DNA of 64,000 nucleotides, taken from the IMG/VR virus record IMGVR_UViG_3300042502_002027, positions 1 to 64,000 of that record. One strand, written 5' to 3'. The position numbers and the translations under genes are program-made. This stretch comes from a virus. This document shows, one piece after another, positions 7,552 to 64,000 of the stretch (within the stretch, counting starts at the first letter, position 1; each line of letters opens with the position of its first letter). The notes below the pieces were generated by a model, which saw only the letters and a list, made by a program, of their open reading frames with translations, was not told where the DNA came from and ran no database searches.

Positions 7552-8112
7552 TCACTTCTCTTTTGAGATTTTCTTTATATTATCCATCATATTCTTCTCT
7601 ACATCGAGCATTTTTTTATTTAATGATGATTGGGCATCAGATATTTCTTTGGTTAACGATGCTATAGAAGCAGCATTTGTTGATATTCTATTAGTTATAT
7701 CAGTTATTTTGCCAGTAACGGCTTGCTTTGTAGAGTCATCCTTAGATAATTTTAATTCTTCACTAAAATCATCTTTTTTAACCTTATCATTCGCAATATC
7801 TTTTTGAATATTATTAACTTTTCTTGTTAAACTAGCAATGTGTAGATACTCAACTAAGAAAGGATTTCTATCCTGACCTGGTAAGGCATCTATTTTACCA
7901 ACAATCGATTCTATTTTCTTTTGTAAGTCAGCATCTATTTTGATTGTTAGATATGCGGTGTCTATTAGAGGCTTCTTTGTTTTATATTCAGTAAGTTGAT
8001 TTTTAAGAGTTGTCAACTTTTCTTTAGCCATTTTAATATCTGGTTGGTCTGTTATATTAACATCAAATTCAGCTTCTTCTAAAAAGATTCTATATGATTT
8101 TAGGTTCCTCAT
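7552..8112 (-). CDS. Tagged coiled-coil protein, probably virion-associated
   Basis: A 186-residue, highly charged, almost entirely helical protein with heptad-like spacing from residue 25 on. It begins MRNLKSYRIFLEEAEF, one of the clearest copies of the N-terminal tag shared by many proteins here, with an L-E-E triplet that could be a prohead-protease site. Its ATG overlaps the stop codon of the upstream 945-residue gene (TAATG), so the two are probably translationally coupled. Function unknown; an internal head or core role is inferred from the tag and neighbour. Confidence 0.55.
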   Translation of the reverse strand: MRNLKSYRIFLEEAEFDVNITDQPDIKMAKEKLTTLKNQLTEYKTKKPLIDTAYLTIKIDADLQKKIESIVGKIDALPGQDRNPFLVEYLHIASLTRKVNNIQKDIANDKVKKDDFSEELKLSKDDSTKQAVTGKITDITNRISTNAASIASLTKEISDAQSSLNKKMLDVEKNMMDNIKKISKEK

Positions 8113-10949
8113 TACTTTTTCTCCATTTTGGTTTTGGATATATTATCAGCACCCGAAACGGTCTTAAATCCTCCAATTGTTGAAATTCTATCTCCTATTT
8201 TTTTATTTAATACAAATCTTGTTTTATCTGATGATGTTTCAACATCTTTTGTATTCTCATATAAAGTATAACAGTTTACAACACTAATACTTTCTGGTTT
8301 ATCTGATAAAGTTGATTTAGTATTTGCGTTATTTGATTTTCCATCAAACTTAGTTAAGTATGTTATCTCATAGTCTCCTGTTAACTTAAACTTACCATCT
8401 TTTCCTATTAGATTATCAATTTTCTTTTTAGTAGCTTTTATTTTATAATCTAAATTTGATTCCTTGCCATCTTCATCTATTTGTTCTTTTCCTTGTTTAT
8501 TCAAGAATATTTCTCTTGGAAGATCTCCTTTTGTTAATTTATTAGGTATTCCTGATTCTGTGATATATTTTTGAAAGAAGTAAAAAGATCTTGAATATGT
8601 TATATAAGCAATGTCACCAACAACTTCTTGTATAAAGAAGTAAACCACACTTTTATTAGTTGATACAGCAAAGAATGATTTAGCTAAATCATCATTTGAT
8701 TCAAATTTAATAGGATCTTTTGTGAAAAGTAGATTTTTGGCTCCAGGTATAGAATCAGCATTTTTTGAATTGCCTTCTTGCTCTTCAGATCCTCCAAAGT
8801 TTGTTTTATTTGGATCATCCTCTTTATAACCAAAGTACTGATCTAAAAATTTAGCTTGTAACCCTTTAGCATCTTTACCAGTTTTGTAAAGTTCATCACC
8901 ATCAAGCATATCCGTCATGAATTTACGAAGATTTGCTCCTGCTTTATCTATTAAGTCATTACCTACTTTTAATTTAGTACCAATGTTAAAAATTGGTTGA
9001 TATTTTTTATCTCTTTGTATATCTAATACAGTATCTTCCCATTGATTAAAAATGGCGTTATTTCTATATGGTCCACCAGACTTGCCAGCAGTACTTGGAT
9101 CACCTGATCCAAAAGTAGTATATTCCATAAACACACTATTTGATACTCTACCTCCACTTCTTCCAGATGGAATTACTTGTGTTGTGTGTATTTTATAAGC
9201 TCTATTGAAACACTTGACAATATCTAAAACAGGATCAATTCCATTTATTACAATAGAATCTTTTCTTTCTTTTTCAATTTTATCAAATTTTTCTTTCATT
9301 TTAATAACTTCTGTTTTTTCCATTACAAAAGCCTTAATATCTATCTTTTTACTCCAATAGTCTTTAATTTTTTGAGATGTAGTCATTGTATCAGGAGCAC
9401 CAACTTTTGATTCTTCCTCATTTTCTTCAGTCTCTTCACCTTCTTCAGCTTCTTTTAATAATGATATAAATTTATCATATTTAAATAAAGATGATTCTTT
9501 TTTAACTTCTTCTTTAGGTTTCTCTTCAGTTTTAACTTCAGCTTTTTTCTCAGTAGGTTTTATTGTCATTGTAGATTTAATTCCTTCTACAAATGCTTGT
9601 AAGCCTTTACCTGTTTCTCCTAGACCACCATATAATCCTTCTTTGTCAAATTGTAAAGCAGTTTTAGCAAATCTTGCTATTTTCTCAGCTACAACAATTT
9701 TTTTGTTTTTATCTGAGATTATTTCCATACTTTCTTTATACAAAGGAGTGCTAGAAGCATTTAATGTTTCTTTTTTATCACCAACTAAATATCTGTTGAT
9801 TTCTGTAAAAAGAGATTTAATAACTTCTTTGTTTTTAGAATCTAGTGATTTTGATGTTATATCATTTAAGAATTTAACATCTACACCAACGCCTTTATCT
9901 TTTGGTGATTCCAATACTTCAATAGCTTTCTTTAACTTAGCAAAAGCTTGTGTTAGATGGTCTTCACCTCCTTTAATATTTGCTCTATCTGGACTTGCGC
10001 CATCACCAATAGCTTCTAATAAAGTATAACTTTCCATTACAAGAACTAAACCAGCAGGCATTGTTTGATTATCTTTTGGATATTTTGCCAATTGAGGGTT
10101 TTTAGCTCTAATATCAGCCGATGCTAATTTTTTTGAATTGGCTTTAGTATTCTTTTGAATCTTTTCAACAGTATCTCCGGCTACAGTAGTGTATGTTACT
10201 TTAGTACTTTGTCTAGTTTCTTTATTACTTAATGTCGTTGTTGCTAACTTAACCTCTTTGTAATGTGATAATATAGAAGTTAATGATTTTAATGTTTTGA
10301 TCATAGTAGGATACATGGATTCTGAAGAATTTGAGCCCTCTCCTTCTTTATCACCCTCTCCTTCTTTATCACCTTCTCCTTCACCTTCTCCTTCACCCTC
10401 TCCTTCTTCTTTATCAGCATCTGCTTCGGATTTTCCACCTTCATCATCCTTAAATTGTTCTAAGAATTTTAAAAATTCTTCTAACTGACTTATTAAACTA
10501 TCTTTATTTTCAAAGTCTTCAAAGTTTTTAATATCTGAAATTGCTGCTTTTGTTAAATTTCTAATATCACCTACGCTAGCTTCTTCCTCTACAGCTTTTT
10601 GTAAACTATCAAGAAAAGAAAAAACAGTAAGTCTTTTGAATTCTTTTTTATCCTCTTCTGATAATTCAGCTTCAGCTGAACCACCTAAGAGATCATCAAA
10701 CGCATATCTTAGTCTTTTAGCTACGCCTTTTATTCTAACAAGATTAGCACCAATCTTTGCTTTTCTAATAGTAGAGTTTATTAATCTACCTAGTAAAGAG
10801 TCACCCCAAGGTATATCATTAGCAAATGGTCCGCTATTTTCAACGTCTTCATTTATTTTAACCAAATCTTTATCTTCTAAAGACTTATATTCATCTATTT
10901 TGTTTATGCTTCTTTTAAGGAACTCATCTCTATTACTAAGATACTTCAT
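8112..10949 (-). CDS. Large multidomain structural/internal protein with LysM-like segment
   Basis: A 945-residue protein I do not recognise as a whole. It starts MKYLSNRDEFLKR, a weak version of the shared tag. Residues about 180-215 are a Glu/Gly low-complexity linker. Around 255-310 there is a LysM-like stretch (TTVAGDTVEKI, then a PAGLVLVM ending). A second acidic linker near 505-535 follows an internal tag-like motif, LFKYDKFISLLKEAEE. The C-terminal third is globular with aromatic-rich strands. It forms a TAATG-coupled pair with the 186-residue coiled-coil gene and has a TTAATATATA box upstream. Peptidoglycan binding and head packaging are both possible; neither is proven. Confidence 0.5.
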   Translation of the reverse strand: MKYLSNRDEFLKRSINKIDEYKSLEDKDLVKINEDVENSGPFANDIPWGDSLLGRLINSTIRKAKIGANLVRIKGVAKRLRYAFDDLLGGSAEAELSEEDKKEFKRLTVFSFLDSLQKAVEEEASVGDIRNLTKAAISDIKNFEDFENKDSLISQLEEFLKFLEQFKDDEGGKSEADADKEEGEGEGEGEGEGDKEGEGDKEGEGSNSSESMYPTMIKTLKSLTSILSHYKEVKLATTTLSNKETRQSTKVTYTTVAGDTVEKIQKNTKANSKKLASADIRAKNPQLAKYPKDNQTMPAGLVLVMESYTLLEAIGDGASPDRANIKGGEDHLTQAFAKLKKAIEVLESPKDKGVGVDVKFLNDITSKSLDSKNKEVIKSLFTEINRYLVGDKKETLNASSTPLYKESMEIISDKNKKIVVAEKIARFAKTALQFDKEGLYGGLGETGKGLQAFVEGIKSTMTIKPTEKKAEVKTEEKPKEEVKKESSLFKYDKFISLLKEAEEGEETEENEEESKVGAPDTMTTSQKIKDYWSKKIDIKAFVMEKTEVIKMKEKFDKIEKERKDSIVINGIDPVLDIVKCFNRAYKIHTTQVIPSGRSGGRVSNSVFMEYTTFGSGDPSTAGKSGGPYRNNAIFNQWEDTVLDIQRDKKYQPIFNIGTKLKVGNDLIDKAGANLRKFMTDMLDGDELYKTGKDAKGLQAKFLDQYFGYKEDDPNKTNFGGSEEQEGNSKNADSIPGAKNLLFTKDPIKFESNDDLAKSFFAVSTNKSVVYFFIQEVVGDIAYITYSRSFYFFQKYITESGIPNKLTKGDLPREIFLNKQGKEQIDEDGKESNLDYKIKATKKKIDNLIGKDGKFKLTGDYEITYLTKFDGKSNNANTKSTLSDKPESISVVNCYTLYENTKDVETSSDKTRFVLNKKIGDRISTIGGFKTVSGADNISKTKMEKK

Positions 10950-10972
10950 AAATTAATGTAATTTTTTCAACA

Positions 10973-10982
10973 TATATATTAA
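10973..10982 (-). promoter_or_regulatory. Putative late promoter of the 945-residue protein gene
   Basis: Minus-strand TTAATATATA about 25 bases before the ATG at 10949, followed by an A/T-rich leader. Confidence 0.45.
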
Positions 10983-11083
10983 AAAACTTTTATTGAAAAT
11001 TAGTTAAAATGAATAATTATGATTATCTTTGTTTAAGATAATTGATTAAAATAGATTATAAAACAAAAAAATAATAAATAAAA

Positions 11084-11114: not shown

Positions 11115-11145
11115 TATAACAAAATAACCACTAAAAGAAAATAAT

Positions 11146-11616: not shown

Positions 11617-11642
11617 AAAAAATCATTTTTTTCCATATTCTT

Positions 11643-18619: not shown

Positions 18620-19282
18620 ATGAAGCATATCAGAACATATGAAAACTATCGTATTAAAAAGAACAGAGAAGAAATCATTAAAGAATCGGTTCTTCAAGTA
18701 AACGATATTTACAAAGTAAAGACAATGATTGATATTCCTCAATCTTTAATCAATGCTTATGTGAAAAAAGTAAAAGACACTACAGGTAAAAACCTACGCA
18801 CGTTCTTTGGTGATGTTGATATTGCTGAAGAAATTGTAAAGTTTATTAATATGGATAACTTAGATGTTGAGAAAATTCCTGGTGGTGCTTTAATGGGTGG
18901 TGGTCAATCACAAACTCAAACACAACCTCAGGCTCAACCTCAAGTTCAAGTAGAGGCTCAACCTCAAGCTCAAACTCAAGAAGCTCCTCAGGCACAAGCT
19001 CAACCAGCTCAAACTCAAGAAGCTCCTCAAGCACAAGCTCAAGAAGCTCCAGCACAAGGTGAATTTGAAGAACCTCAAGCACAAGCTCAACCTGCTCAAG
19101 GTCAGGCTCAAGAAGCTCCAGCACAAGGAGAAGAAGCTCAACCAGCACAAGGACAAGCTCAACCAGCACAAGGACAAGCTCAACCAGCACAAGGACAAGC
19201 TCAACCAGCACAAGGTGAAGAAGAAGAAAAAGAAGAAGGTGAAGAAGAAAAAGAAGAAGGTGAAGAAGAATTACCTCTTTAA
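18620..19282 (+). CDS. Tagged protein with long Q/A/P-rich tail
   Basis: A 220-residue protein starting MKHIRTYENYRIKKNREE, a good copy of the shared N-terminal tag. Residues about 1-90 look globular and helical. From about 95 to 200 the chain is built of Gln, Ala, Pro and Glu repeats, with the unit A-Q-P-A-Q-G-Q repeated near the end, followed by an acidic E/K/G tail. Promoter and terminator frame it as a single-gene unit. Function unknown; the tag suggests packaging in the head and the tail is probably disordered. Confidence 0.55.
   Translation: MKHIRTYENYRIKKNREEIIKESVLQVNDIYKVKTMIDIPQSLINAYVKKVKDTTGKNLRTFFGDVDIAEEIVKFINMDNLDVEKIPGGALMGGGQSQTQTQPQAQPQVQVEAQPQAQTQEAPQAQAQPAQTQEAPQAQAQEAPAQGEFEEPQAQAQPAQGQAQEAPAQGEEAQPAQGQAQPAQGQAQPAQGQAQPAQGEEEEKEEGEEEKEEGEEELPL
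18905..19265 (+). repeat. Low-complexity tandem repeat DNA inside the tagged Q/A/P protein
   Basis: CAAGCTCAACCAGCA-type units of 21 bases repeat several times near 19135-19210, preceded by more degenerate copies and followed by GAAGAA-rich DNA. The repetition is a likely site of length variation by slippage. Antisense open frames here are artefacts of the repeats. Confidence 0.75.
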
Positions 19283-19351: not shown

Positions 19352-19963
19352 ATGAAATTCCTTAAAACATTTGAGAGTCATAGTAGTGGAACATTAATTA
19401 TAGTTGATGTTCAAAAATCATTTAGAAAGTTCTTTTCAGAAATGTATCTTAATGAATTAAAGAAGTATTGTAATAACTTTCAAAATGTTTATCAAATTTG
19501 GGATAATCATACAGATGGTAAGAATGTAGATAAAGATTATTTATATGATGAAACACCTGTAATTCCTATTCATAAAGATCTTTATCATTTTACTAATCAA
19601 AAAGACCTTATTGAGAAAAGGTATAACTACAAAGTAGATGCTGATTTCTATAAAAAGATATTAGACAAAGATGTTTATCAAGAAATTTCTGATAAAGAAG
19701 ATAAGAGTTTATTAAAGAAAGGTGATATATTCAATACTAAAGAAGGAACTATTATTACTTACATAAACAATAATCACGTTTGGTTTCACTGTCCTATAAA
19801 ACTATATGAATTATTAAAGTCACTTAATGGTAAAGAAGTTACAATTGTCGGTGGTGCTGATTCTGAGTGTTTAGAAGATGTTGTTACTACTGCTGAGAGT
19901 TTAGGAGTTAAAATTAAAAGAGATTATAAGTATATTTATACTGCTAATAGTTGCCCTATTTAA
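19352..19963 (+). CDS. Tagged isochorismatase/nicotinamidase-like hydrolase
   Basis: A 203-residue protein with the N-terminal tag MKFLKTFESH directly followed by the first core strand TLIIVDVQKSF, whose Asp19 matches the catalytic Asp of cysteine hydrolases. The late motif IVGGADSECLEDVVTTAESLG carries Cys173 in the position of the family nucleophile (broken here as VGGADSECL and VVTTAESLG). The catalytic Lys is not obvious, so activity is uncertain. If active, nicotinamide or a related amide is a candidate substrate. The tag is fused with no linker. Start chosen by the promoter position. Confidence 0.6.
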   Translation: MKFLKTFESHSSGTLIIVDVQKSFRKFFSEMYLNELKKYCNNFQNVYQIWDNHTDGKNVDKDYLYDETPVIPIHKDLYHFTNQKDLIEKRYNYKVDADFYKKILDKDVYQEISDKEDKSLLKKGDIFNTKEGTIITYINNNHVWFHCPIKLYELLKSLNGKEVTIVGGADSECLEDVVTTAESLGVKIKRDYKYIYTANSCPI

Positions 19964-20354
19964 TAAAGTGTAGTAAATAAGGATCTTTTGAATCAGCAAC
20001 TGTAGCACCACACCTTTGCCAGAACTTTTTACTATCCTTTGTACATCTTACAAAGACCTCATCTTCTAAATAAATGTCTAAAACTTTCTTAGCAAGATAC
20101 TCACCTAATCCTTTACCTCTCATATCTGAGAATGCTGACATTATTTCAGGTTTACCGTAATTCGAATTTGGATTAACTTCTATTTCAACTATAGGTTTGC
20201 CTTCGAGTCTTAATTGATAAAAATCGGTTTCACCTTTTTTAGCACCAAATGATGGTTTAAATAAAGTTTTTTCACCTGAAGGAACTTTATAAAACTCCAT
20301 GTTAGATATTAGTTCATTATCAATATAAGACTCAAATGTTTTAATGTATCTCAT
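19956..20354 (-). CDS. Tagged GNAT-like acetyltransferase
   Basis: A 132-residue protein starting MRYIKTFESYIDNE, a near-perfect copy of the tag. The rest has the short GNAT plan: KPIVEIEVN strand, then MRGKGLGEYLAKKVLDIYL, which matches the acetyl-CoA binding R-G-x-G-x-G/A loop plus helix, and a final FWQRCGATVADS, typical of GNAT motif B. The N-terminal tag precedes the fold. It overlaps the end of the isochorismatase-like gene convergently by 8 bases. The substrate cannot be read from the sequence. Confidence 0.6.
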   Translation of the reverse strand: MRYIKTFESYIDNELISNMEFYKVPSGEKTLFKPSFGAKKGETDFYQLRLEGKPIVEIEVNPNSNYGKPEIMSAFSDMRGKGLGEYLAKKVLDIYLEDEVFVRCTKDSKKFWQRCGATVADSKDPYLLHFIK

Positions 20355-27968: not shown

Positions 27969-27977
27969 TAATATATA
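27969..27977 (+). promoter_or_regulatory. Putative late promoter
   Basis: TAATATATA then CTCTATAAAAA, with the ATG at 28001. The same CTCTATAAAAA-like leader follows the box before the scaffold and sheath genes. Confidence 0.45.
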
Positions 27978-28000: not shown

Positions 28001-28477
28001 ATGAGACATTTAAGAAAATTTGAAGAACTTGATTATTCTACATATATGAGTGCTGCTGATAAAATGGCTGGATATGGTCAAGTTAAGAAAGCAGAAGAAG
28101 TTAAATCACATGCTAAAAGCATGGCTATGATGCTTATCAAAAATATGGAGTTTGATATTTTAGTTGGTAATGTTAAAGAATTTCCAATGGCAAAATTTCA
28201 TAGTGCTAGAATATTTAAATCAGGAACAGCTTGGACTCTTCAAGTTATGTTCGAATCTAATGGTGGTTATACACATAGTGTGATGTCCAAGGCTACACCT
28301 GAAGGTGAAATTAGTTGGCAAGAAGGTAATAAATTTATGAATAGAAAATCTACAATTAAGTTTAATCAACTTATTGAACAACTTTGTCTTTTTCAACCAG
28401 ATTTTGTTGGATACTTAAAAGAGTATAGCTTAAATTCTGGTGATCTTAAATTAATACAAAGAACTTATTATTTATAA
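28001..28477 (+). CDS. Tagged unknown protein
   Basis: A 158-residue protein starting MRHLRKFEELDYSTY, a recognisable copy of the shared tag. The rest is a compact mixed domain (KFHSARIFKSGTAWTLQVMF, then a C-terminal QLIEQLCLFQPDFVGYL helix). Single-gene unit just upstream of the portal gene with its own promoter and terminator. Head packaging is inferred from tag and location; no family recognised. Confidence 0.5.
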   Translation: MRHLRKFEELDYSTYMSAADKMAGYGQVKKAEEVKSHAKSMAMMLIKNMEFDILVGNVKEFPMAKFHSARIFKSGTAWTLQVMFESNGGYTHSVMSKATPEGEISWQEGNKFMNRKSTIKFNQLIEQLCLFQPDFVGYLKEYSLNSGDLKLIQRTYYL

Positions 28478-28566: not shown

Positions 28567-30279
28567 ATGGCATCATATAATCAATTTAACGCAGGTTCAG
28601 GTCAAACAAATTTCGCCTACACCAACAGTGCTGTTGAGAATAAAGGACTTTTTAATAGAATTTTAAGAGGTTTATCATCTTATGGTATGAACTATGATGA
28701 TATGATTGTTAGAAACCAAGTTGGTATTGGTATTAACGAAGATCCATATGCGGCTAGAGGTAACTCAATGTATGACTTCTTCTCTCAAAGAGCCGTAGCT
28801 TCTGTCTTAAATAGAAAATCAATTCCTTACTTAGATAAAGCTTATGGTGATAAAAGAAGAATTTTAAGAGAATATTCAATTAAAGATGAAATTAGAGACT
28901 TTATTAGTTCATTAGCTGATGAAAGTATTGTTTATAATGATGAAAGAGATTTCTGTTCTCCTAAGCCTTTATCAAATGATTATTCACAAGAGATTAAAGA
29001 TAAGTATCAAGAATATTTTGAAAAGATTTATAATAAGTTTGGATTCTCTGATAGTATTACTGCCTGGAATATGATGAAAGACTTTTTAATTGATGGTTAT
29101 TTAGCATTAGAAATTATCTATGATGATAAGAAAAAGAATATTATTGGTTTTAACAGATTAAGACCAGATACTTTAGTTCCAGCATTTGAGCCATCTATTG
29201 GTCACTTATGGATTCAGTTTCCTGAAGATCCTCAATTGAGAAGAATCTTCTTAGATTCTCAGTTAGTTTATATTTCTTATTCATCTCAAAATGATTATTC
29301 AGAAACATCTTATGTAGAAGGTTTAATTAAACCATATAACCAATTAAAGATTCTTGAGCAAACAAGAGTAATGTTTAACATTATTAATGCTACAGTTTAT
29401 CAAAAGTTTACTATTCCTATTAAAGGTTTATCAAGACAAAGAGCTGAAGAACAAATTGGTCAATTAATCAATGATTATTCAGAAGAAGTTGAATGGGATG
29501 ATTCATTAGGTACATTAACTATCAATGGGGCTAAACACTTACCTTATAATAAACAAATTTGGTTCCCTGAAGGAGATGCTGGTACACCAGCTATGGAATT
29601 AGTTTCACCTGAAGGACATAACTTAAATGAGTCGGATATGTTGACTTGGTTCTACAATGCCCTAAAAAGAGCTTCTAAGATTCCTTTCCAACGTTTTGAT
29701 AAAGAAAATGGTGGTGGTAACTTAATCAATGACTCGGCTGATATGACGAGAGATGAGATTAAATTTTACAACTTTATTAATAGATTAAGAGCTAACTTCA
29801 AAGAACTTATTGTTAAGCCTTTGAAACTACAAATGTTAATTGAGTTTCCTGAGTTGAAAGAAGATGAGATTCTTATGAATCAAATTGATATTAACTTTAA
29901 CTCAAATCAAGTATTTGAAGAATGGAAGAAATTAAATAACTTGGCTAAGAAAGCAGAAATATTTGGTACTTTAGTTGGAATTATGAATGGTGAAAAACCT
30001 TACTTCCACGTTGAGTATTTAATTGATAATGTATTTAAATTGACACCAGAAGAAAAAGCTGAAAATCAAAAATACTGGGCTAAAGATGCTCTCGGTGTTG
30101 CTGGTGGTGGTGCGGCCGCTGGTGCTGAAGGTGGTGCTCCTGCTGAAGGTGCTCCTGCTGAAGGTGGTGAGGCTCCAGCTGAGGGTGGTGAAGCCGCTCC
30201 TGAGGCACAAGCCGCTCCTGAGGCACAAGCCGCTCCTGAAACTCCTCCTGCTGAAGGTGGTGGTGAATTTGAATTCTAA
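28567..30279 (+). CDS. gp20: Portal protein (T4 gp20-like)
   Basis: A 570-residue protein forming the dodecameric DNA gate of the head. Family segments include NSMYDFFSQRAVASVLNRKS near residue 66, the RRILREYS strand, NMMKDFLIDGYLALEIIYDD near 160, LRPDTLVPAFEP and a long helix region with NLINDSADMTRDEIKFYNF. T4 gp20 is 524 residues; the last 60 residues here are a disordered Ala/Gly/Pro/Glu repeat tail (units such as PAEGG and APEAQ). The gene lies upstream of scaffold and capsid, in T4 order. Confidence 0.92.
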   Translation: MASYNQFNAGSGQTNFAYTNSAVENKGLFNRILRGLSSYGMNYDDMIVRNQVGIGINEDPYAARGNSMYDFFSQRAVASVLNRKSIPYLDKAYGDKRRILREYSIKDEIRDFISSLADESIVYNDERDFCSPKPLSNDYSQEIKDKYQEYFEKIYNKFGFSDSITAWNMMKDFLIDGYLALEIIYDDKKKNIIGFNRLRPDTLVPAFEPSIGHLWIQFPEDPQLRRIFLDSQLVYISYSSQNDYSETSYVEGLIKPYNQLKILEQTRVMFNIINATVYQKFTIPIKGLSRQRAEEQIGQLINDYSEEVEWDDSLGTLTINGAKHLPYNKQIWFPEGDAGTPAMELVSPEGHNLNESDMLTWFYNALKRASKIPFQRFDKENGGGNLINDSADMTRDEIKFYNFINRLRANFKELIVKPLKLQMLIEFPELKEDEILMNQIDINFNSNQVFEEWKKLNNLAKKAEIFGTLVGIMNGEKPYFHVEYLIDNVFKLTPEEKAENQKYWAKDALGVAGGGAAAGAEGGAPAEGAPAEGGEAPAEGGEAAPEAQAAPEAQAAPETPPAEGGGEFEF

Positions 30280-33234: not shown

Positions 33235-35358
33235 ATGAAACCAGTATTAATTATAGAAAATTCACAAAACTCTCTTATTAGAGAGAACAATGGTTCAACT
33301 AAGAAGGATTACATTCTAGGTGGTACGTTCACAGAGTTCGGTGTTAAAAACCGTAATGAAAGAATTTATACTGCTGATAAATTTCTTCCAGCTTTAAATG
33401 AATTAAATGAAAGAATGAGCAGTTTAGGCGTTGTTTACGGTGAGTTTGATCACCCAGATGTTTTTGACACATCTCTTTCAAGAGCATCACACATTATCAC
33501 AAAAGCTAATTATGTAAAAGAATCAAATTTAGTTAATGGTGAAATTAGATTACTAAACACTTATTGGGGTAAAGAAGCAAAGGCATTAGTTGATGACGGA
33601 TGTCCTGTTTTCGTTTCTTCAAGAGCCGCTGGTATCACTGAATCAGATGGTACTGTTTCATTGAAAAAATTATTTACATATGATATCGTTGCTGATCCAG
33701 GTTTTGCTTCTGCTAAAATGTCGGTTAAGAATATCAACGAATCATTAGGATATAATGAAAACTCTAACTTTAGGATATATGAAATGTCCGATGAGTCCAA
33801 AATAAATCAACTATTTGATATGAACAAAAATGAATTTGTTACAAAGCAACAATTAACTGAATATTCTCAGTATTTAGTTAAAGAACTAGCTTCTACAAAG
33901 AAAGAAGTTAAAGGTGCTCTTACTAAAGGTAATTTATCTCCAAAGAAAATGGAGCAACTTTTAGAGTACTATGAAGAGTTAAATTCTACTAATTCTCAAG
34001 TTGTTAAATATTTAGATTATTTGGCTGAAAAAGTTCAAATTATGGTTAATGAAAACAAGTCGTTAAAGGAAACTACTGACAAACTTATTAAACATAATGA
34101 CTATTTAGCTGAAAATTTAGAAAAAGCTGTTAACTACTCTGAATACTTAGCTGAAAACTTAGACAAAAATATTGAGTATTCTGAATACTTAGCTGAAAAT
34201 CTTGATAAGAACATTTCTTATTCAGAATATATCGCTGAAAATCTTGATAAGAACATTTCTTATTCTGAATACTTAGCTGAAAACTTAGACAAAAATATTG
34301 AGTACTCTGAGTACTTAGCTGAAAATCTTGATAAGAATATTGCTTATTCAGAATATATCGCTGAAAACTTAGACAAAAATATTTCTTACGCAGAATATAT
34401 TGCTGAGCACGTTGATAATTCAATTGCTTATTCTGAATACTTAGCTGAACACGTTGAAGGTAACATCGCTTACTCTGAATACATTGCTGAACATTTAGAT
34501 GATAATATTGCTTACTCTGAATACATTGCTGAAAATCTTGATAAATCAATTAACTACCAAGGTTTAATCGTTGAAAAATTAAATTCAAGAAAATTAAATG
34601 AATCAATGAGTGAAGAAGAAGAAGCTTTCCCATCATTACAAGCGGCAGGTTTTGAAAATACTCAAGAAGATGAGAATGAAGAAGAAGAAAATGAAGAAGA
34701 AGCATACAATGGTATTGCTTCAGCTCATGAAGAAGAAGCATATAATAAAGAAGAAGAAGATGAAGACTGTGGTCCATCTGCTACTGAAGAAGAAAATAAT
34801 GATGAAGAAGCTCATGATTACAAAGTAACTGGTAACAGTGATTCTGAATTATCTGAGTCAATCAACAAATTAATAGAAGAAGCTAAAAAACGTAAAGTTT
34901 CTGAATCAACTGACTTGAATTTCTTAAAATTCTTAAACAAGTCACAAGTAGATAGTTACTACGCTTTGTCTGATGAAGACCAAGAGGCTGTTAAATTTCA
35001 CATAAACGAAAGAAATTACTTCACATCTAAAGATGTGTTAAGCCTAATCGCAGAAGCGCTATCATCAAAGAATGAATCTCTTGAAGAAAGAGTAATCAGA
35101 TTAATGCCTGAAAACACTAAGGCTATCTGGAGTCAAATGAATGAATCTGCTAAAAAATCTATCTTATCACAAGCTAGACTTTACCCAGCTGAAGTTTTAA
35201 TGACTGAATCACAAGTTGAGCATTTCTGGTTAACTAGAAAGCTTAAAACAAACGAGTCTGTAACTAAAAAGTTAGTAGCTCATGAAAGTTTAATACAAGA
35301 AGATAAACTTTCTGATAATGACGTTACTGCGATTATGGAAAGATTCAAAAACATTTAA
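33235..35358 (+). CDS. gp21-gp22: Prohead protease fused to scaffold core protein (T4 gp21 + gp22-like)
   Basis: A 707-residue fusion. Residues 1-165 are the gp21-type serine protease: GEFDHPD at 69-75 gives catalytic His73, and FVSSRAAG at 126-133 gives the Ser, with TYDIVADPG near 148 closing the fold. Residues about 200-475 form the scaffold: a coiled coil with ten full tandem repeats of YSEYLAENLDKNIx (14 residues, two heptads) plus one partial. Then follow acidic Glu-rich tails with EEENEEE runs and a C-terminal helical domain. In T4 the protease and core are separate genes. Each repeat holds an I/L-A-E triplet, the T4 cleavage consensus, so the scaffold could be cut into small peptides. 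Located just before the capsid gene, as in T4. Confidence 0.88.
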   Translation: MKPVLIIENSQNSLIRENNGSTKKDYILGGTFTEFGVKNRNERIYTADKFLPALNELNERMSSLGVVYGEFDHPDVFDTSLSRASHIITKANYVKESNLVNGEIRLLNTYWGKEAKALVDDGCPVFVSSRAAGITESDGTVSLKKLFTYDIVADPGFASAKMSVKNINESLGYNENSNFRIYEMSDESKINQLFDMNKNEFVTKQQLTEYSQYLVKELASTKKEVKGALTKGNLSPKKMEQLLEYYEELNSTNSQVVKYLDYLAEKVQIMVNENKSLKETTDKLIKHNDYLAENLEKAVNYSEYLAENLDKNIEYSEYLAENLDKNISYSEYIAENLDKNISYSEYLAENLDKNIEYSEYLAENLDKNIAYSEYIAENLDKNISYAEYIAEHVDNSIAYSEYLAEHVEGNIAYSEYIAEHLDDNIAYSEYIAENLDKSINYQGLIVEKLNSRKLNESMSEEEEAFPSLQAAGFENTQEDENEEEENEEEAYNGIASAHEEEAYNKEEEDEDCGPSATEEENNDEEAHDYKVTGNSDSELSESINKLIEEAKKRKVSESTDLNFLKFLNKSQVDSYYALSDEDQEAVKFHINERNYFTSKDVLSLIAEALSSKNESLEERVIRLMPENTKAIWSQMNESAKKSILSQARLYPAEVLMTESQVEHFWLTRKLKTNESVTKKLVAHESLIQEDKLSDNDVTAIMERFKNI
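34093..34554 (+). repeat. 42-bp tandem repeats coding 14-residue scaffold units
   Basis: About eleven consecutive 42-base units, unit 2 starting at 34135. Copies differ mostly at silent positions (cttgat/ttagac, aac/aat), so they have diverged at DNA level while keeping the protein unit YSEYxAExxDxxIx. Copy number could change by recombination. Confidence 0.9.
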
Positions 35359-35401: not shown

Positions 35402-35410
35402 TAATATATA
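35402..35410 (+). promoter_or_regulatory. Putative late promoter of the capsid gene
   Basis: TAATATATA followed by a 29-base A-rich leader (AAAAAAAAATTAAAAAAATT) to the ATG at 35440. Confidence 0.5.
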
Positions 35411-35439: not shown

Positions 35440-37155
35440 ATGTCACACATTAGAATAGACAAATCAAAAGCAGTTAAGAAATGGGCTCCAGTTTTGGAAA
35501 ACATGGGTGTAACTGAAGATAGAGTAGAATGGATGTCAGAAATGGCTGAGTATCACTCAATCAATGAGAATGCGTATGTAAACGCATCAAACGTAGCAGG
35601 TATGGGAGCTGTATTGAATCCAGTTGTTGGTTCATTAGCTGGTAATCCTGGTAACTACTCAAATGCTTACGGTAACGTAGCAGGTTCTGGAGACGTAGGT
35701 CAAAACTTACTTCCAGTAGCTATGAAAATTGCTGCTCAAACAATCGGTTTAGACTTAGTAGCTGTTAAACCAACTCCAGGTCCAAAAATCGATTTATTAT
35801 ACATCGATTTCCAATACGATGATGTTAATAACTTAACAGATGGTTATGAAAAGCCACAAGTTTTCAAATTATATGCTAGTAACATTACTGACATCAATGC
35901 TGTTATTGCTGCTGACGTTGCTGGTACAGATAGAAATGGTTATACTTTAGCTCCGTTACAACAAACAACTGGTGGATTACAAGGTGGTAGATTATTCTAC
36001 GGTATCACTGCTTCATCAGCATTTGTAAGTAACACTTTACCAGCATCTAAAACAAATGTAGTTGAATTCTTAGGTTTCTCTCGTATCGATGGTTACCCAA
36101 TGTTCAGAGTATTCAGACAAGCAAATACATCAGGTAACATTTCTGTTCCTCATACATTTGTTGCTGCTGACAACACATTTGCTGCTACAGGTAGTATGCT
36201 TTCTCAAATTTTAGGTTTAGCTGGTTTAGTTCCTAACGCAGGAACAAAAGAAGTTCAATTGATCTCTGCTTTAGAAGATCATATCCCAGGATTCACATCT
36301 AACTGGACTGCTGCTTCAGGTGGTGCTTTAGGTAACTATCCAATGGATCGTGCTTCTGATGATAACAGTTATGCTGGTGTTATCGGACCAAAAATCTCTT
36401 CTAAAACTGTAGCAGTTGGTACTATTGAAGTATCTTCAGCTCTTAGAAGAACTGAAATCGAAGATATCAAAGCTAACACAGGTATGGATATCGTTCAAAA
36501 AATGGAGTCTATCCTTGTTAACGAATTGTCTCAAACAATTTCTAAACAAATCGTTGCTAAAATCTTCGAAATGGGTGCTCTTAATGCTGTTAATGCTCCT
36601 GCTGCTCCAGCTGGTTCTGCTAACAGTGGAGGTACTATCTTCGATTTGAACACTGCTTATGCTGCTACTACTTATGTTGGTGGTGAAACTACTCACGCTG
36701 TTCAACGTAAGTTAATCACTAAGATTGCTCACGCTTCTAACTACATTGCTACTGAAGGTCGTGTAGGTCCTGCTCAATACCTTATCACAAACGGAGGTCT
36801 TGCTGCTGCTTTACAAGATATCGCTGGTTACACAATTAACCCAGTTAAATCTAAATTAAACGGACAAGGTCAATTATACCCTGTAGGTTCAATCGGAGAC
36901 ATCTCTATCTATGTAGATCCATATATGAGATATAACGATAACAGAATCGTATTAGGTCGTAAGAACAACCCTGACCAACCAGGTATCATTTTCGTACCTT
37001 ACTTAATGGCTCAGTCTATCTCAGTTATCTCTGAAGCTACATTCGCTCCAAGAATGTTGTTACGTTCAAGATATGCTGTAACTGAAGTTGGTTGGTTCCC
37101 ACAAAAACAATACATGACTATTACAGTTACTGACGCTGCTCAGTTATTAAACTAA
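35440..37155 (+). CDS. gp23: Major capsid protein (T4 gp23-like)
   Basis: A 571-residue HK97-fold capsid subunit. It starts with a short propeptide containing KWAPVLENMGVTEDRVEWMS and candidate prohead-protease sites, INE after residue 43 and MAE after 37. Typical gp23 segments follow: QNLLPVAMKIAAQTIGLDLV, VAVKPTPGPKIDLLYIDFQY, the helix RRTEIEDIKANTGMDIVQKM, GRVGPAQYLIT and a final YMTITVTDAAQLL. T4 gp23 is 521 residues. Codon use has more C-ending codons and fewer rare ones than neighbours, as expected for high expression. Framed by promoter and terminator. Confidence 0.95.
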   Translation: MSHIRIDKSKAVKKWAPVLENMGVTEDRVEWMSEMAEYHSINENAYVNASNVAGMGAVLNPVVGSLAGNPGNYSNAYGNVAGSGDVGQNLLPVAMKIAAQTIGLDLVAVKPTPGPKIDLLYIDFQYDDVNNLTDGYEKPQVFKLYASNITDINAVIAADVAGTDRNGYTLAPLQQTTGGLQGGRLFYGITASSAFVSNTLPASKTNVVEFLGFSRIDGYPMFRVFRQANTSGNISVPHTFVAADNTFAATGSMLSQILGLAGLVPNAGTKEVQLISALEDHIPGFTSNWTAASGGALGNYPMDRASDDNSYAGVIGPKISSKTVAVGTIEVSSALRRTEIEDIKANTGMDIVQKMESILVNELSQTISKQIVAKIFEMGALNAVNAPAAPAGSANSGGTIFDLNTAYAATTYVGGETTHAVQRKLITKIAHASNYIATEGRVGPAQYLITNGGLAAALQDIAGYTINPVKSKLNGQGQLYPVGSIGDISIYVDPYMRYNDNRIVLGRKNNPDQPGIIFVPYLMAQSISVISEATFAPRMLLRSRYAVTEVGWFPQKQYMTITVTDAAQLLN

Positions 37156-37235: not shown

Positions 37236-37940
37236 ATGAAATATTTACTAATTGAAAATAGAGGTGATGATTCTGAAGATCGTGAAGATAAAGATATCAT
37301 TATTAAGTATTTTGATGACTTAAATGATGTTTATTCATATATCTGTCATGAATTAATATATGAGGATTTAGATATAGAAGATTTTAACAATGATCCTTAT
37401 AGTGGGGTAGAAGAAAGAATTGAAGAACATGGTTCTAGTTATTATATTTTTGAAGGTGAAAACGAGATAATGTCATTAAAAATAGGTAGTATAAAGGATG
37501 GTGATTGGAATAAATTCACTAATTTTTGTTTAGGTGGTATAAAAGAAAGTAGAATAATGAATTATAAATCATTTAATGAGTCTAAAAAAGATAAATTCCC
37601 TAATATTCAAAAATTAGAAATAGAAGGATTTGTTGTTTATGTTGGTAAAGATGCTAAATCTAATGACCATTTGACATTTAATGTTGCTGATAAAGAAGAT
37701 ATTTGGTTCCATGTTAAAGGTGTTCCTGGTAGTCACGTTGTTATTCGTGTAAGAGAAAATTTACCTACAGAAACTGTTATTAAATCTGCTGCTCAATTAG
37801 CTAAAAAGAATAGTAAAGGATCTAAAGAATCTAGTGTAACTGTTGTTTATTGTCAAAGAAGATTTGTAAAGAAAGAGTCTGGTATGAATGATGGTCAAGT
37901 TAAAGTGGATTATACAAATTCATATCAAATTGTAGTTTAA
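37236..37940 (+). CDS. NFACT-R (RqcH C-terminal type) protein with tagged internal start
   Basis: A 234-residue protein. The first 100 residues are acidic and unknown. The last 100 match the NFACT-R RNA-binding domain: FVVYVGKDAKSND, IWFHVKGVPGSHVVIRV and SAAQLAKKNSKGSKESSVTV, the family D/W-F-H-V-K-x-x-P-G-S-H-V-V-I signature. In RqcH/NEMF proteins this domain binds stalled ribosomal large subunits. An internal ATG at 37558 starts MNYKSFNESKKDK, a copy of the shared tag, so a separate 127-residue NFACT-R product is possible. Start chosen from the promoter spacing. Confidence 0.75.
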   Translation: MKYLLIENRGDDSEDREDKDIIIKYFDDLNDVYSYICHELIYEDLDIEDFNNDPYSGVEERIEEHGSSYYIFEGENEIMSLKIGSIKDGDWNKFTNFCLGGIKESRIMNYKSFNESKKDKFPNIQKLEIEGFVVYVGKDAKSNDHLTFNVADKEDIWFHVKGVPGSHVVIRVRENLPTETVIKSAAQLAKKNSKGSKESSVTVVYCQRRFVKKESGMNDGQVKVDYTNSYQIVV

Positions 37941-37977: not shown

Positions 37978-39333
37978 ATGGCAGATACTAATGAACCTGT
38001 AAGAGTTAAATTTTCCGAAGAACTTCATGATTTATTAAAAGTTTTAGAAGATGAGAATAGTTATATCGCATTTGAAATGCTTTGGCTAAATGAACCTAAT
38101 TCTAAATATCATAATGGTTTAGGAATTACTGATGTTAATATATCTAAGACAAAATCTTGTTTAGATGTTACATCTAGAGGTAAAGTACACCCTATGAAAA
38201 TAGAAAATTTTATTAAATTTTACTTTAAAAATTATTTTCAAACTGCTGATATTCAAGATTTTATTGAACAATATGATATATTAGCAGGTGGTGGATCTGT
38301 TGAAAGTATTGCTGTTAATAGAATTACACCAGAGCCTTTTAGTTATAACCCTAAAGACGTTAGAAGTACATTTATTTCATTAGTTACTAAGACATATCCT
38401 CACGGACACGAAGAAGAAGTAATGGCTTTTATGCCTAAATTGGATAAAGATATTGTAGGTAACTATTATAAGATTATTGGCGAGAATTCAACAACAATGT
38501 TTACGTCTCACTTAGATACTGCTGATAGAAAACAAGGCATTACTAAACTTCTTTCTAAGAAAGATGATAAAGGTGATGAAATTATCTATACAGATGGTTC
38601 TACTATATTAGGTGCTGATGATAAATCAGGTGTTGCTGTTATGCTTTATATGATGGCTCATAATGTACCAGGTCTTTATTACTTCTTTATGGGTGAAGAA
38701 AGAGGTGGTATTGGTTCAGGTTTATTATCTTCAGTGTATGAACAAGTTGAATATCTTAAAAATATTAAGAGATGTGTTTCTTTTGATAGAAGAGATGTTT
38801 GTTCAGTTATCACTTCTCAATTAGGCAGAACTTGTTGTTCTGATCAATTTGGAACTGCTTTGGCTAAACAATATAATTCACACGGTCTTAATTTATCATT
38901 AGATCCAGGTGGTATATACACAGATTCTGCTTCATTTATTGACCAAATTCCTGAATGTACTAACATTTCAGTTGGTTATTATAGTGAACATACTGGTAAA
39001 GAAAGACAAAATATCAACTATTTAGAAAGACTTGCTAAAGCTAGTGTAAAAGTAAATTGGGATTCATTACCAACTACTAGAAAGATAGGAATTGATGAAG
39101 AAACTATTAGAAAATATGGTAAGTTAATTAGTGATATAAAAGCAACACCATTTGGTATTGATGTTAAAATAGCATCTGATAGAGCTACTACATTTATTCA
39201 ATGTGATTTAGAAGAAGGTTATATTGATGAAACATATGAGGCTTTAACAACATTACAATTCTTATTAAACAAACACAAAGTAAGTCAAAAGGTTTATTTT
39301 GACGCAGAATACATAAAAATAGATTTACTATAA
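37978..39333 (+). CDS. M20/M28-like zinc metallopeptidase, copy 1
   Basis: A 451-residue protein. An N-terminal extension of about 130 residues precedes a di-zinc peptidase core: TSHLDTA (His178, Asp180), STILGADDKSG (Asp214), YYFFMGEERGGIGS (Glu240-Glu241), SFDRR near 275 and GYYSEHTG (last His) near 333. All five metal ligands and the general base Glu are present. The closest plan is peptidase T/aminopeptidase-like. The core is a paralogue of the gene at 55352. Next gene overlaps by one base. Substrate unknown; small peptides are the family norm. Confidence 0.82.
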   Translation: MADTNEPVRVKFSEELHDLLKVLEDENSYIAFEMLWLNEPNSKYHNGLGITDVNISKTKSCLDVTSRGKVHPMKIENFIKFYFKNYFQTADIQDFIEQYDILAGGGSVESIAVNRITPEPFSYNPKDVRSTFISLVTKTYPHGHEEEVMAFMPKLDKDIVGNYYKIIGENSTTMFTSHLDTADRKQGITKLLSKKDDKGDEIIYTDGSTILGADDKSGVAVMLYMMAHNVPGLYYFFMGEERGGIGSGLLSSVYEQVEYLKNIKRCVSFDRRDVCSVITSQLGRTCCSDQFGTALAKQYNSHGLNLSLDPGGIYTDSASFIDQIPECTNISVGYYSEHTGKERQNINYLERLAKASVKVNWDSLPTTRKIGIDEETIRKYGKLISDIKATPFGIDVKIASDRATTFIQCDLEEGYIDETYEALTTLQFLLNKHKVSQKVYFDAEYIKIDLL

Positions 39334-39782
39334 TGAAACTTAAAAAATTTAATCAATTATTTGAACGTGAGGGTTTTGATGATATCGATGGATATGATTA
39401 TGAAGATGATTACGATTATTCAAGAGAAGATGAATATAAAGGTGATGATGATGATGATTCAGATGATGATATGTCACATCTTTGTTATCTTTTAAGATCC
39501 ATGTTTAATAATAGTAATGTAGATGTTAATGTTGAAAATAGTGGATTGGATTTATCTATTACAGCTCAATTTGCTAGAAGAGAATCACTTAGTGATATTG
39601 TTAAAGTATTTGAAATTGTTAGAAAAATTAAAAAAGACGTTTTAGCTCAATATTCTTCTTCTTATGAAATATGGGAAACTAAAACAGGTACGCCTATGAT
39701 TACATTTGAATTTATGTTAGAAGACGATGATGATAAAGATGGTGTAGTTGCTGATGATAAGAACGATGATTATCCTTGGTAA
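39333..39782 (+). CDS. Tagged acidic protein coupled to metallopeptidase
   Basis: A 149-residue protein starting MKLKKFNQLFEREGF, a tag-like N-terminus, followed by an Asp-rich stretch (GDDDDDSDDD near residue 40) and a small alpha/beta domain (LDLSITAQFARRESL) with an acidic C-terminus. Coupled to the metallopeptidase by a one-base overlap (TAATG). The acidic run could bind metal or mimic nucleic acid. No family recognised. Confidence 0.5.
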   Translation: MKLKKFNQLFEREGFDDIDGYDYEDDYDYSREDEYKGDDDDDSDDDMSHLCYLLRSMFNNSNVDVNVENSGLDLSITAQFARRESLSDIVKVFEIVRKIKKDVLAQYSSSYEIWETKTGTPMITFEFMLEDDDDKDGVVADDKNDDYPW

Positions 39783-55351: not shown

Positions 55352-56446
55352 ATGAGAATACGCAGAAAGTTTTTACAACTTACGAAATACACTTATCCAC
55401 ACGGCACAGAGGGATTTTTAAAATCATATCTTCCGGAAGGTACTAAAAAAGATGCCTATGGTAATTTTTACTACCTAATTGGTGAGGATCCTACAACAAT
55501 GTTTACTTGTCATTTAGATACTGCTTGTTCTAAACAAGTAAAAGTAAATCATGTTCAAACACAAAATATAATTAAGACTGACGGTTCTTCTATTTTAGGA
55601 GCCGATGATAAAGCAGGAATGGTTGTTATTCTTAATATGATTGAGAATAAAGTTCCAGGTCTTTATTATTTCTTTATTGGCGAGGAAGTTGGTTGTGTTG
55701 GTTCTAGTAAATTAGCTCAAAATTGGGTAAATAGTGAATTCAGTTATACTATTTCTAAAGTTGTTTCTTTTGATAGAAGAAGTACCGGATCTGTTATTAC
55801 ACATCAATGGTATGGTCGTTGTTGTTCTGATGAATTTGCTGATGAATTATCTTTTAGATTAAATGGAACCGGTCAAAGATTAAAACTTGAACCAGATGAT
55901 ACGGGTGTTTTAACAGACTCTGCCCAATTTATGGATATCGTACCAGAGTGTACTAATATTTCAGTTGGTTATATGTATGAACATACAACCGGTGAGTATC
56001 AAGATATTGAGTTTCTACAAAGACTTTGTAAAGCTGTTTGTTTAATTGATTGGGAATCACTTCCTGTTGAAAGAAATCCATATGATATTTCAAATGAAGA
56101 TGATGATGATGATGATTTAGAATTTTCAACAGATGATGAAGTTTATTCAGAAGAATACTATTCTTACTTTTCGGTAAATGGTAAAACAAAGAAAATGTAT
56201 ATTGCTACTGATTTGATAAAAAAAGAAACTGAATTAATCAGAAATTATTTAACAAATAATGGTTATGGTGATATGTATGGTATTACCTGGAATGGTCATA
56301 AGTGTTATGCTCAAAATGAAACAAATTGTTATGACTTTGTTGGCTCTCGTACAGATTTTATGGATGTGATATCTGAATTGTGTTCAGTTCCTTTGAATAA
56401 GATTAAAGAGAAATTGAGAAATGATATTAGTCATTTAGTATTCTAA
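55352..56446 (+). CDS. M20/M28-like zinc metallopeptidase, copy 2
   Basis: A 364-residue paralogue of the protein at 37978. Core motifs: TCHLDTA (His54, Asp56), SSILGADDKAG (Asp84), YYFFIGEEVGCVGS (Glu111-Glu112), SFDRRSTG near 140 and GYMYEHTTG near 205. The start differs, with no long N-terminal extension, and there is a C-terminal domain after a poly-Asp linker (EDDDDDDLEF). It has a host-type promoter, unlike copy 1, so the two may be made at different times. Confidence 0.82.
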   Translation: MRIRRKFLQLTKYTYPHGTEGFLKSYLPEGTKKDAYGNFYYLIGEDPTTMFTCHLDTACSKQVKVNHVQTQNIIKTDGSSILGADDKAGMVVILNMIENKVPGLYYFFIGEEVGCVGSSKLAQNWVNSEFSYTISKVVSFDRRSTGSVITHQWYGRCCSDEFADELSFRLNGTGQRLKLEPDDTGVLTDSAQFMDIVPECTNISVGYMYEHTTGEYQDIEFLQRLCKAVCLIDWESLPVERNPYDISNEDDDDDDLEFSTDDEVYSEEYYSYFSVNGKTKKMYIATDLIKKETELIRNYLTNNGYGDMYGITWNGHKCYAQNETNCYDFVGSRTDFMDVISELCSVPLNKIKEKLRNDISHLVF

Positions 56447-58464: not shown

Positions 58465-58980
58465 TTATTTAGTCTTACTTGAAATCCAAGCACTGGCTAG
58501 TATAGAAATAGTTAAGGCCATTGCGCCAGTAAAAACTCCCCAGAAATTATTATTTATAACACCACTAACAATCATAAATATTGACAAAATTGGACCTCCA
58601 AGTCCAAAAATATATGAAAAGAATTTCAATAATTTCTCTTTAATATAGTCACCAAGACCTTCTTGAACCGCCTCAAGTTCTTTATCTTTATTTCTCATTA
58701 TTATTTCTCTATCTAACCACTCTTTTACTAATACTGGATTTGTTAAATCTTCTAAAGTACATCCAAACTTTTCAGTTAATTTTTCTAACTCTTCAGAGAC
58801 TTTTAATTTATCCAAACTATTCATTTTATTTATTATGTCAGTAGTCTCATGCTTAATTTTCACATCTTCTTCTTTGTTTAAGTGTAAATCCTCAACATTA
58901 TATTGATATAAATCTTTATCATGAAAATGTAGATGAGTAGTGTTCTCATTAAATTGTTTAAAGGTCTTTATTGATTTCAT
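58465..58980 (-). CDS. Tagged membrane-associated protein
   Basis: A 171-residue protein starting MKSIKTFKQFNENTTH, a clear copy of the shared tag. A hydrophilic middle is followed by QEGLGDYIKEKLLKFF, an amphipathic helix, and two membrane segments (YIFGLGGPILSIFMIVSGVI and a GAMALTISILASAW helix). With the 620-residue gene just upstream (16 bases) it looks like an internal head protein pair that inserts in the host membrane during ejection. This role is inferred. Confidence 0.55.
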   Translation of the reverse strand: MKSIKTFKQFNENTTHLHFHDKDLYQYNVEDLHLNKEEDVKIKHETTDIINKMNSLDKLKVSEELEKLTEKFGCTLEDLTNPVLVKEWLDREIIMRNKDKELEAVQEGLGDYIKEKLLKFFSYIFGLGGPILSIFMIVSGVINNNFWGVFTGAMALTISILASAWISSKTK

Positions 58981-60858: not shown

Positions 60859-60882
60859 ATTATATTTTAATTTTTTACAGGA

Positions 60883-60892
60883 TATATATTAA
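60883..60892 (-). promoter_or_regulatory. Putative late promoter of the ejection protein genes
   Basis: Minus-strand TTAATATATA about 25 bases before the ATG at 60858. Confidence 0.45.
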
Positions 60893-60942
60893 AATATAAA
60901 CCTTTTTTTTTCAATTTATATAACCTTAATAAAATTATATCT

Positions 60943-61728: not shown

Positions 61729-61759
61729 AACATATTTCTATTATTTAATATAATAATTG

Positions 61760-63072: not shown

Positions 63073-63085
63073 AATAATTATTAAT

Positions 63086-63556: not shown

Positions 63557-63592
63557 AAAAAATTAAAAATGTAAAAAAAATGAGTTTTTCAA

Positions 63593-63603
63593 TATAATAT
63601 ATA
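63593..63603 (+). promoter_or_regulatory. Putative late promoter
   Basis: TATAATATATA followed by CATTATAAAAATAAAC leader; ATG at 63628. Confidence 0.45.
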
Positions 63604-63627
63604 CATTATAAAAATAAACTAATAGAC

Positions 63628-64000
63628 ATGAGATATTTAAAAACTTATGAATCATTTTCAACAAACGAAGAGTTCTTAGGTGGACTTTGGAACAAAATTA
63701 GTTCAGCATTCGCTAATTGGAAAAATGAAAAATTGAAAAATGCTGGTGAAAAACTAGCTAAGGCAATTGAAGAAAAGAAAGACCAACCAGAAATGGCTAA
63801 GGCTCTTGCTGACTTAAAATCTGCTTATGCTTCTTTACCACAAGAAGATAAAGCTAAAATTGAATCACTTAAAGATGAGAAAAATATTCCTGTTCATACT
63901 GAAGCTTCTACAGAAGAAGAAATAATGGCTGAATCACTTCTTCTTGAAGAAGAAGGATTAGCTATGAAAATTATTGGTTGGTTAGGTTTATCTGCTAGTG
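63628..64000 (+). CDS. Tagged putative internal protein, 3' end missing
   Basis: 124 codons are visible. It starts MRYLKTYESFSTNEEFLGGL, one of the best tag copies, followed by an amphipathic helix GGLWNKISSAFANWKNEKL like that of the ejection-type protein at 58996, then a helical charged region and AESLLLEEEGLAMKIIGWLG, where a hydrophobic segment may begin at the window edge. The LLLEEEGLA run could be a prohead-protease site. Function unknown; a packaged, membrane-active protein is inferred. Confidence 0.5.
   Translation, partial: MRYLKTYESFSTNEEFLGGLWNKISSAFANWKNEKLKNAGEKLAKAIEEKKDQPEMAKALADLKSAYASLPQEDKAKIESLKDEKNIPVHTEASTEEEIMAESLLLEEEGLAMKIIGWLGLSAS

Follow-up and report, generated by a model that had tools for sequence, protein, structure and literature searches.

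A T4-like N-terminal peptide on unrelated proteins of Mahaphage-type phages as a probable capsid-targeting signal

The 64,000-nucleotide stretch of viral DNA analysed here (the window; positions 1 to 64,000 of IMG/VR record IMGVR_UViG_3300042502_002027) belongs to a 90,364-bp record related to Mahaphage-type genomes of 634-735 kb, and a set of its proteins begins with the same short peptide. This peptide, called the tag below, has the form M-K-(H/Y)-(I/L)-K-x-(F/Y)-(E/K)-x-F and is usually followed by a glutamate within a few residues. The tag is real, occurs above chance and is shared by otherwise unrelated proteins. Judged from its sequence and gene context, it is probably a T4-type capsid-targeting sequence. 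For T-even phages, PMC12373910 and PMC3012670 describe internal proteins that are recognised by an N-terminal signal of this kind. Given its resemblance to the address label of T4-type heads, the start-peptide probably marks proteins that are carried into the next cell. The first-pass annotation had proposed a T4-style targeting peptide cut by a gp21-type protease; this proposal is supported by the alignment with T4, by gp21- and gp23-type genes, by a recurring cleavage motif, by a promoter core shared with structural genes and by proteins of phage PAU.

Five genomes or fragments were compared, namely the window's own record, LR756502 (642,428 bases), LR745206 (634,780 bases), the IMG/VR contig G001 and 180 kb of the contig G002. 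We infer that LR756502 and LR745206, like LR756504 (636,363 bases) and LR756503 (735,411 bases), are genomes of the Mahaphage clade; for Mahaphage genomes of more than 634 kb, PMC7162821 describes a predicted replication in Bacteroidetes. The capsid protein of the window is 69 percent identical to that of LR756502 and 67 percent to that of LR745206. Genes were called crudely, as the longest open reading frames (ORFs) from ATG with at least 60 amino acids, and the strict tag was defined by the regular expression M(K/R)x(ILFMV)(KRN)x(FY)(EKRNDQ)x(FYHLW). On these gene calls the expression finds 136 proteins: 8/97 in the own record, 56/917 in LR756502, 40/889 in LR745206, 23/434 in the full 385 kb of G001 (9/314 in its first 300 kb) and 9/165 in the 180 kb of G002. 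When residues 2-20 are shuffled, the expected numbers are 0.02 for the own record, 0.085 each for LR756502 and LR745206, and 0.05 for the first 300 kb of G001. Internal Met codons match in 4 of 7479 cases (four genomes, with G001 at 300 kb). These two controls, together with the codon-permuted DNA pattern described below, rule out a chance origin. The scan of the full record and its relatives thus places the tag far above chance and makes it much commoner than the nine starts listed at first; in the own record, one more strict tag lies beyond the window (71198-71731, minus strand).

When over-represented triplets at the N-terminus were sought de novo, a shorter form emerged in LR756502, MKHLK(K/R)(Y/F)NE↓S, where the arrow marks the putative cut. 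When strict, short and loose forms are counted together, the numbers rise to 117/917 in LR756502, 78/889 in LR745206 and 40/434 in G001, with 9/165 in G002 and 8/97 in the own record; shuffled N-termini give about 1.0, 1.0, 0.5, 0.2 and 0.1, respectively. In the three largest genomes or fragments, one gene in eight to eleven is tagged. The first 113 strict-tagged proteins fall into 74 sequence clusters, and 252 tagged proteins of all forms into 151, the largest of which has 56 chained members. The DNA encoding the tag is distinct in 113/113 cases. Because synonymous codons vary, the constraint acts on the protein.

In many tags the resemblance to T4 extends to the end of the peptide. The T4 sequence MKTYQEFIAE↓A (AF158101) can be aligned with forms such as MKYIKTFEQFIAE↓S (L286), which have three extra residues after MK. 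Two proteins starting with MKTYQEFIAE are seen in the T4 sequence, and we take these to be ipII and ipIII. According to the account in PMC9026906, T4 residues 4 and 7 play a part in targeting and residues 8 and 10 in processing, and gp21 cleaves behind (L/I)-x-E. Anchored at the cut, T4 residues 4, 7, 8 and 10 correspond to F7, F10, I11 and E13 of the tag; by direct numbering, the tag has L/I/V4 and Y/F7 at the T4 targeting positions, residues which the search patterns themselves demand. Residues 11-13 were left free in the search pattern. Among the viral matches listed, 39/135 tags read INE (18), VNE (14) or LNE (7) at these positions, 64/135 have E13, and A or S follows (I/L/V)xE13 in 25/50, as in the IAE↓A of T4. 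A hydrophobic-x-E motif with the glutamate at residues 10-22 is found in 91/136 strict tags and in 757/2366 untagged N-termini of the window's clade. Among these 91 tags, 44 have it at residue 11, and the commonest versions are IFE↓S (16) and LFE↓S (8).

The window carries genes for TerL, the portal protein, a gp21-type protease and a gp23-type capsid protein (phrog_207, 1.6e-30, and PF07068, 4.8e-28, for the latter two). The capsid protein has a predicted cleavage site whose INENAY sequence closes a short propeptide in 84/84 capsid proteins compared, and the motif INE↓N reappears at many tag ends. For phage PAU, Table 1 of PMC5646251 gives a mature capsid protein of 520 of 585 residues, with N-terminal sequencing data. 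On these lengths the cut lies within one residue of E64, in ALME↓NY, and this site aligns with INE↓NAY of the window. In three tagged proteins (L090:294-539, L123:13266-13520 and L083 near 13836), the part after the tag resembles the N-terminal arm of the mature capsid protein (AS..GMG.V...GSGD), so that the tag end lines up with the capsid-protein cleavage site. The gp21-type protease is present in 20/20 records that were selected for a matching capsid protein or matching DNA. In the window it is fused to a scaffold-like region, while in E. coli phage 121Q the corresponding protease and scaffold are separate genes. Y(L/I)AE occurs 12 times in the fusion (33235-35358), in eleven cases at a spacing of exactly 14 residues; each copy has the form (L/I)-x-E, and the region looks as if built for cutting into small pieces.

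Tagged genes also share a promoter-like element with structural genes. The core (TA/TT)ATATATA lies within 100 nt upstream of 80/136 tagged and 464/1880 untagged genes (p 6e-16). It precedes 23/31 orthologs of seven structural genes and 2/37 orthologs of ten DNA-metabolism or methylase genes (p 3e-9). The count in the own record alone, 6/7 against 0/10 (p 0.0006), is the cleaner figure because orthologs are not independent. The same core stands upstream of the sheath, portal, protease and capsid protein genes, and it precedes 25/65 genes that bear the short form only; examples of it lie at 27969-27977 and 35402-35410. Its distance to the start codon is 10-19 nt in 54 of the 80 tagged genes and mostly 28-39 nt in structural genes of the own record; tagged and structural genes thus share the core, though not always the layout. 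A spacing of about 13 nt looks leaderless, and many tagged genes are arranged in this way. This core probably serves as a late promoter, which genes for prohead cargo would need.

The distribution of the tag points to viruses. A DNA pattern was made from the strict form, with residues 1-10 fixed and the lysine codon fixed as AAA. In viral contigs it matched at least 119 stretches, and its codon-permuted control matched 12. Among the viral matches listed, the pattern occurs 159 times within the 119 stretches, and 139 of these occurrences open an ORF of at least 60 amino acids. LR756502 alone has nine in 0.64 Mb. The first-pass annotation had held that an equal frequency in host genes would speak against its proposal; a scan of 84,980 cellular genomes (257 Gb) yields 76 matching stretches, 22 of them starting an ORF of at least 60 amino acids, and a host origin is rejected on this result. 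Several of these ORF-starting cellular matches resemble the phage tag and probably stem from phage contigs that were binned with cellular ones. Two tags (L310, L357) stand on a single 254-kb contig binned with Bacteroidetes; this contig probably comes from a huge phage and gives a hint of the host phylum. Of large contigs (>100 kb) chosen by the tag alone, 14/21 encode gp21 or gp23, a figure that refers to tagged contigs only.

Other phages appear to use dialects of the same signal. In PAU, xLYEx stands at residues 7-9 of 14 proteins, mostly with MK(T/S)(L/I) starts, against 0.5 expected, and seven of the 14 continue to (K/R)LNE. Both gp142 and gp154 of PAU bear this form; the PAU record labels them 'internal capsid protein', and they are the only proteins so labelled in the roughly 57 kb of its annotation covered. 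Chryseobacterium phage MA9V-2, of which 180 of 219 kb were covered, encodes MKTFTYFINE↓A between a 'capsid assembly protein' and the protease. In the first 400 of the 735 kb of LR756503, starts such as MIKTFDEFINE↓S and MIRKFKIFES occur, and nine proteins have I2, F5 and F8 where 0.5 are expected. The de novo N-terminal search returned nothing in PTm1 and nothing in T4, and it evidently misses small sets, since T4 also gave nothing.

The tag behaves as a module set before diverse proteins. Among the homologs of the protein starting at 28001 (29 including its own entry, some near-identical), the untagged ones begin with M(N/K/R)Yx TY exactly at the tag end. In two AlphaFold models, tag residues 1-8 have pLDDT <50 and lie outside the fold, whose first element starts at residue 12 or 14. 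Pfam scans covered seven of the nine proteins listed in the window and 30 tagged proteins from relatives, chosen as enzymatic-looking or large. The first-pass annotation had seen an NFACT-R domain, a GNAT and an isochorismatase-like enzyme behind the tag. Here NFACT-R holds (6e-17), the GNAT match is weak (E 0.0047, under the Pfam cut-off), and no isochorismatase-like Pfam match was obtained; a fold search with the last protein (19352) gave weak matches, including a nicotinamidase (E 0.02). A fold search with 28001 gave no match at E 0.001. Of the 30 proteins from relatives, 16 have no Pfam match at E 0.01. Domains over the cut-off are SET (two), HNH, AAA_33/Zeta, NT5C, BPL_N and DUF5824, and those under it are ART-PolyVal, NUDIX and Toprim. 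In T4, Alt is a packaged and ejected ADP-ribosyltransferase, as reported in PMC9026906. In the largest cargo family, tagged paralogs that share a DILxELxDxGF motif stand in arrays at 11-45 kb of LR756502 (L086-L088) and 310-333 kb of G001 (L173-L174). Further tagged paralogs, several of them in tandem in L205 and L209, have a leucine-rich-looking region (SIDVDGNV...LTxLPLKFN; L205, L208, L209 and L258).

Of the nine starts originally said to share the motif, seven fit it exactly (8112(-), 18620, 19352, 20354(-), 28001, 58980(-) and 63628). The start at 39333 falls outside it, and the supposed internal start at 37558 is out of frame, the Met codon being at 37557. In the families of these two, the loose tag regex is matched by 15/70 and 5/65 homologs, for example MRNLKKFNNFLKEGKKDKFP; because some relatives bear tag-like N-termini, 39333 and 37557 are counted as degenerate members. 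Relatives of the NFACT-R protein start at the internal-tag site, with tags such as MIKNFNLFNE↓SKKDKFP. At 37236-37940 (+), a small ORF is fused in frame ahead of the NFACT-R protein, whose relatives often begin with their own tag. For the protein at 19352, the start given is probably correct, because the upstream codons of the longer ORF (from 19322) resemble promoter sequence. The features of the window are collected in Table 1.

Table 1. Tagged genes, head genes and promoter core in the window (↓, putative cut; homolog counts with self included where so marked).
Feature	Positions	Strand	Remarks
Tagged protein, 186 aa, MRNLKSYRIFLEE	7552..8112	-	no confident domain; 3/4 homologs (self included) tagged
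Tagged protein, 220 aa, MKHIRTYENYR; second half Gln/Ala-rich	18620..19282	+	4/4 homologs (self included) tagged
Tagged protein, 203 aa, MKFLKTFESHS; possibly nicotinamidase/isochorismatase-like	19352..19963	+	5/5 homologs (self included) tagged
Tagged protein, 132 aa, MRYIKTFESYIDNE; weak GNAT match	19956..20354	-	
Promoter core (TA/TT)ATATATA, 32 nt upstream of tagged gene 28001	27969..27977	+	
Tagged protein, 158 aa, MRHLRKFEEL; adjoins portal gene	28001..28477	+	17/29 homologs tagged
Portal protein	28567..30279	+	phrog_213, 2.4e-57
Head maturation protease of gp21 type in fusion with a scaffold-like region; N-terminus MKPVLIIE↓N	33235..35358	+	
gp23-type major capsid protein; predicted cleavage after E43 (SINE↓NAY, bases 35566-35568)	35440..37155	+	
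NFACT-R protein, degenerate internal tag MNYKSFNESKK at 37557	37236..37940	+	
Acidic protein, short tag-like N-terminus MKLKKFNQLFE; relatives' forms such as MKLKKYNNYLNE	39333..39782	+	
Tagged protein, 171 aa, MKSIKTFKQFNE↓N	58465..58980	-	LR745206 homolog starts MRYLKAFENFKINE
Tagged protein, 180 aa, MRYLKTYESFSTNEE; runs on to 64170 in record	63628..64000	+	

Two further groups of genes in the window may be mentioned. Two members of the phage peptidase family phrog_4191 are encoded at 37978-39333 and 55352-56446 (+), one of them near the capsid gene. The tail sheath protein (3579-7484, minus strand) has 1301 amino acids, with its best-scoring sheath-family stretches at residues 758-1292.

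Several observations weigh against a role of the tag in head targeting. Hydrophobic-x-E is missing at residues 10-22 from 45/136 strict tags, including four of the window's seven, and 12/29 homologs of 28001 are untagged. The strict regex finds none of the 243 genes of T4, because the T4 tag is three residues shorter, and the match to T4 needs a three-residue shift. A long pattern searched in 14 records occurs in LR756502 (31 matches), LR745206 (21), LR756504 (20) and LR756500 (11), with a reversed control of 0 in all; the exact pattern is absent from T4, PTm1, pT24, MA9V-2, PAU, LR756503, Lak-C1 (searched with the exact DNA pattern only), 121Q, GAP32 and Cassandra. The exact tag form is thus clade-specific, since ten of the 14 records are without it. 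Upstream of tagged genes, the reversed promoter motif is likewise found somewhat more often than upstream of untagged ones (19/136 vs 150/1880). Of the large tagged contigs, 7/21 encode neither gp21 nor gp23, all of them classed as linear, so that they may be fragments. Virion proteomics of a tagged genome was not found in the literature searched; the MA9V-1 paper presents a gel without mass spectrometry.

Four other explanations can be set against these data. The tagged proteins might enter the prohead as parts of its core or scaffold, to be cut up or lost there, with few of them injected. This is unlikely: gp21 does cut T4 core proteins into pieces (as described in PMC9026906), and 28001 and 39333 lie within the head gene cluster, but the enzyme domains SET, HNH, NT5C, AAA_33/Zeta and BPL_N fit delivery better, and the cargo far exceeds known core proteins in number and variety. 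A tag that directs proteins to some other place in the cell during infection, for instance a replication compartment or the membrane, would agree with the spaced hydrophobic and basic residues, which also suit docking at such sites, and with the lack of a protease motif in a part of the strict tags. Such a destination is nevertheless quite improbable in view of the match to the T4 peptide, the cleavage motif of the capsid protein, the promoter core of structural genes and the internal capsid proteins of PAU.

The two remaining explanations concern the origin of the shared start itself. It could be a trace of duplication, with tagged genes being paralogs that kept their N-terminus, and one large tagged paralog family does exist (20 of the 113 strict proteins, 56 chained members of the 252). 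Yet the many clusters described above, obtained with single-linkage phmmer, which could miss remote kin, and the gain or loss of the tag at an exact border in the 28001 family make this very improbable. Common descent of the whole tagged proteins is not seen in the clustering, that one family excepted. Finally, the motif stands at the start codon and many tagged genes look leaderless, as would suit a feature of the DNA or mRNA that acts in expression or at the start of translation; this idea is scarcely credible, as the residues are kept while synonymous codons vary and most genes of the same genomes lack the motif. An element at the DNA level is disfavoured by the synonymous variation.

If the tag is the capsid-targeting signal favoured here, the tagged proteins would be made late in infection and bind the prohead core through the tag. 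The gp21-type protease would then cut most of them after the glutamate at the tag end, and the mature proteins would remain inside the head alongside the DNA and pass into the next host cell. We infer this sequence of late timing, core binding, cleavage, presence in the virion and ejection. A wider claim has about even chances, namely that Mahaphage-type virions are protein-delivery capsules, in which up to 100 or more different proteins, some of them enzymes, would be made late, loaded into the head and injected with the genome.

The proposed system can be compared with known ones. Like T4, it has a short peptide at the N-terminus of unrelated proteins, with aromatic residues at an interval of three and, in many tags, an (I/L)-x-E end; a gp21-type protease and gp23-type capsid protein are encoded in the same genome. 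Unlike in T4, the tag is three residues longer in forms such as MKYIKTFEQFIAE, and several forms occur per genome. Between 5 and 13 percent of the genes carry it in each of the five genomes or fragments, whereas the T4 internal proteins described in PMC9026906 are IPI, IPII, IPIII and Alt. In the giant Salmonella phage SPN3US, propeptides of head proteins are cut by a gp21-related protease, with a proposed role in targeting, as described in PMC5694885; the propeptides of its ejection proteins are often longer than 100 residues and unshared, unlike the tag of about 9 to 21 residues. An N-terminal signal of phage P1 DarB suffices to bring a reporter into the capsid, as reported in PMC9024508, but there it belongs to a single large protein. 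A description of such a tag in huge phages was not found in the literature searched, which left most subscription journals and all bioRxiv preprints outside. What is new is the scale of the tagging and its spread into several forms.

Most huge-phage proteins here are without recognisable function, and the genomes come from metagenomes. If the tag marks head cargo, it would single out the proteins that come into action first after entry into a new cell, likely including factors for counter-defence and takeover, as in T4. It would also supply an address label for phages whose predicted hosts, according to PMC7162821, are Bacteroidetes. With several tag forms per genome and dialects among lineages, the set of proteins injected by uncultured megaphages would, if this is true, be readable from sequence.

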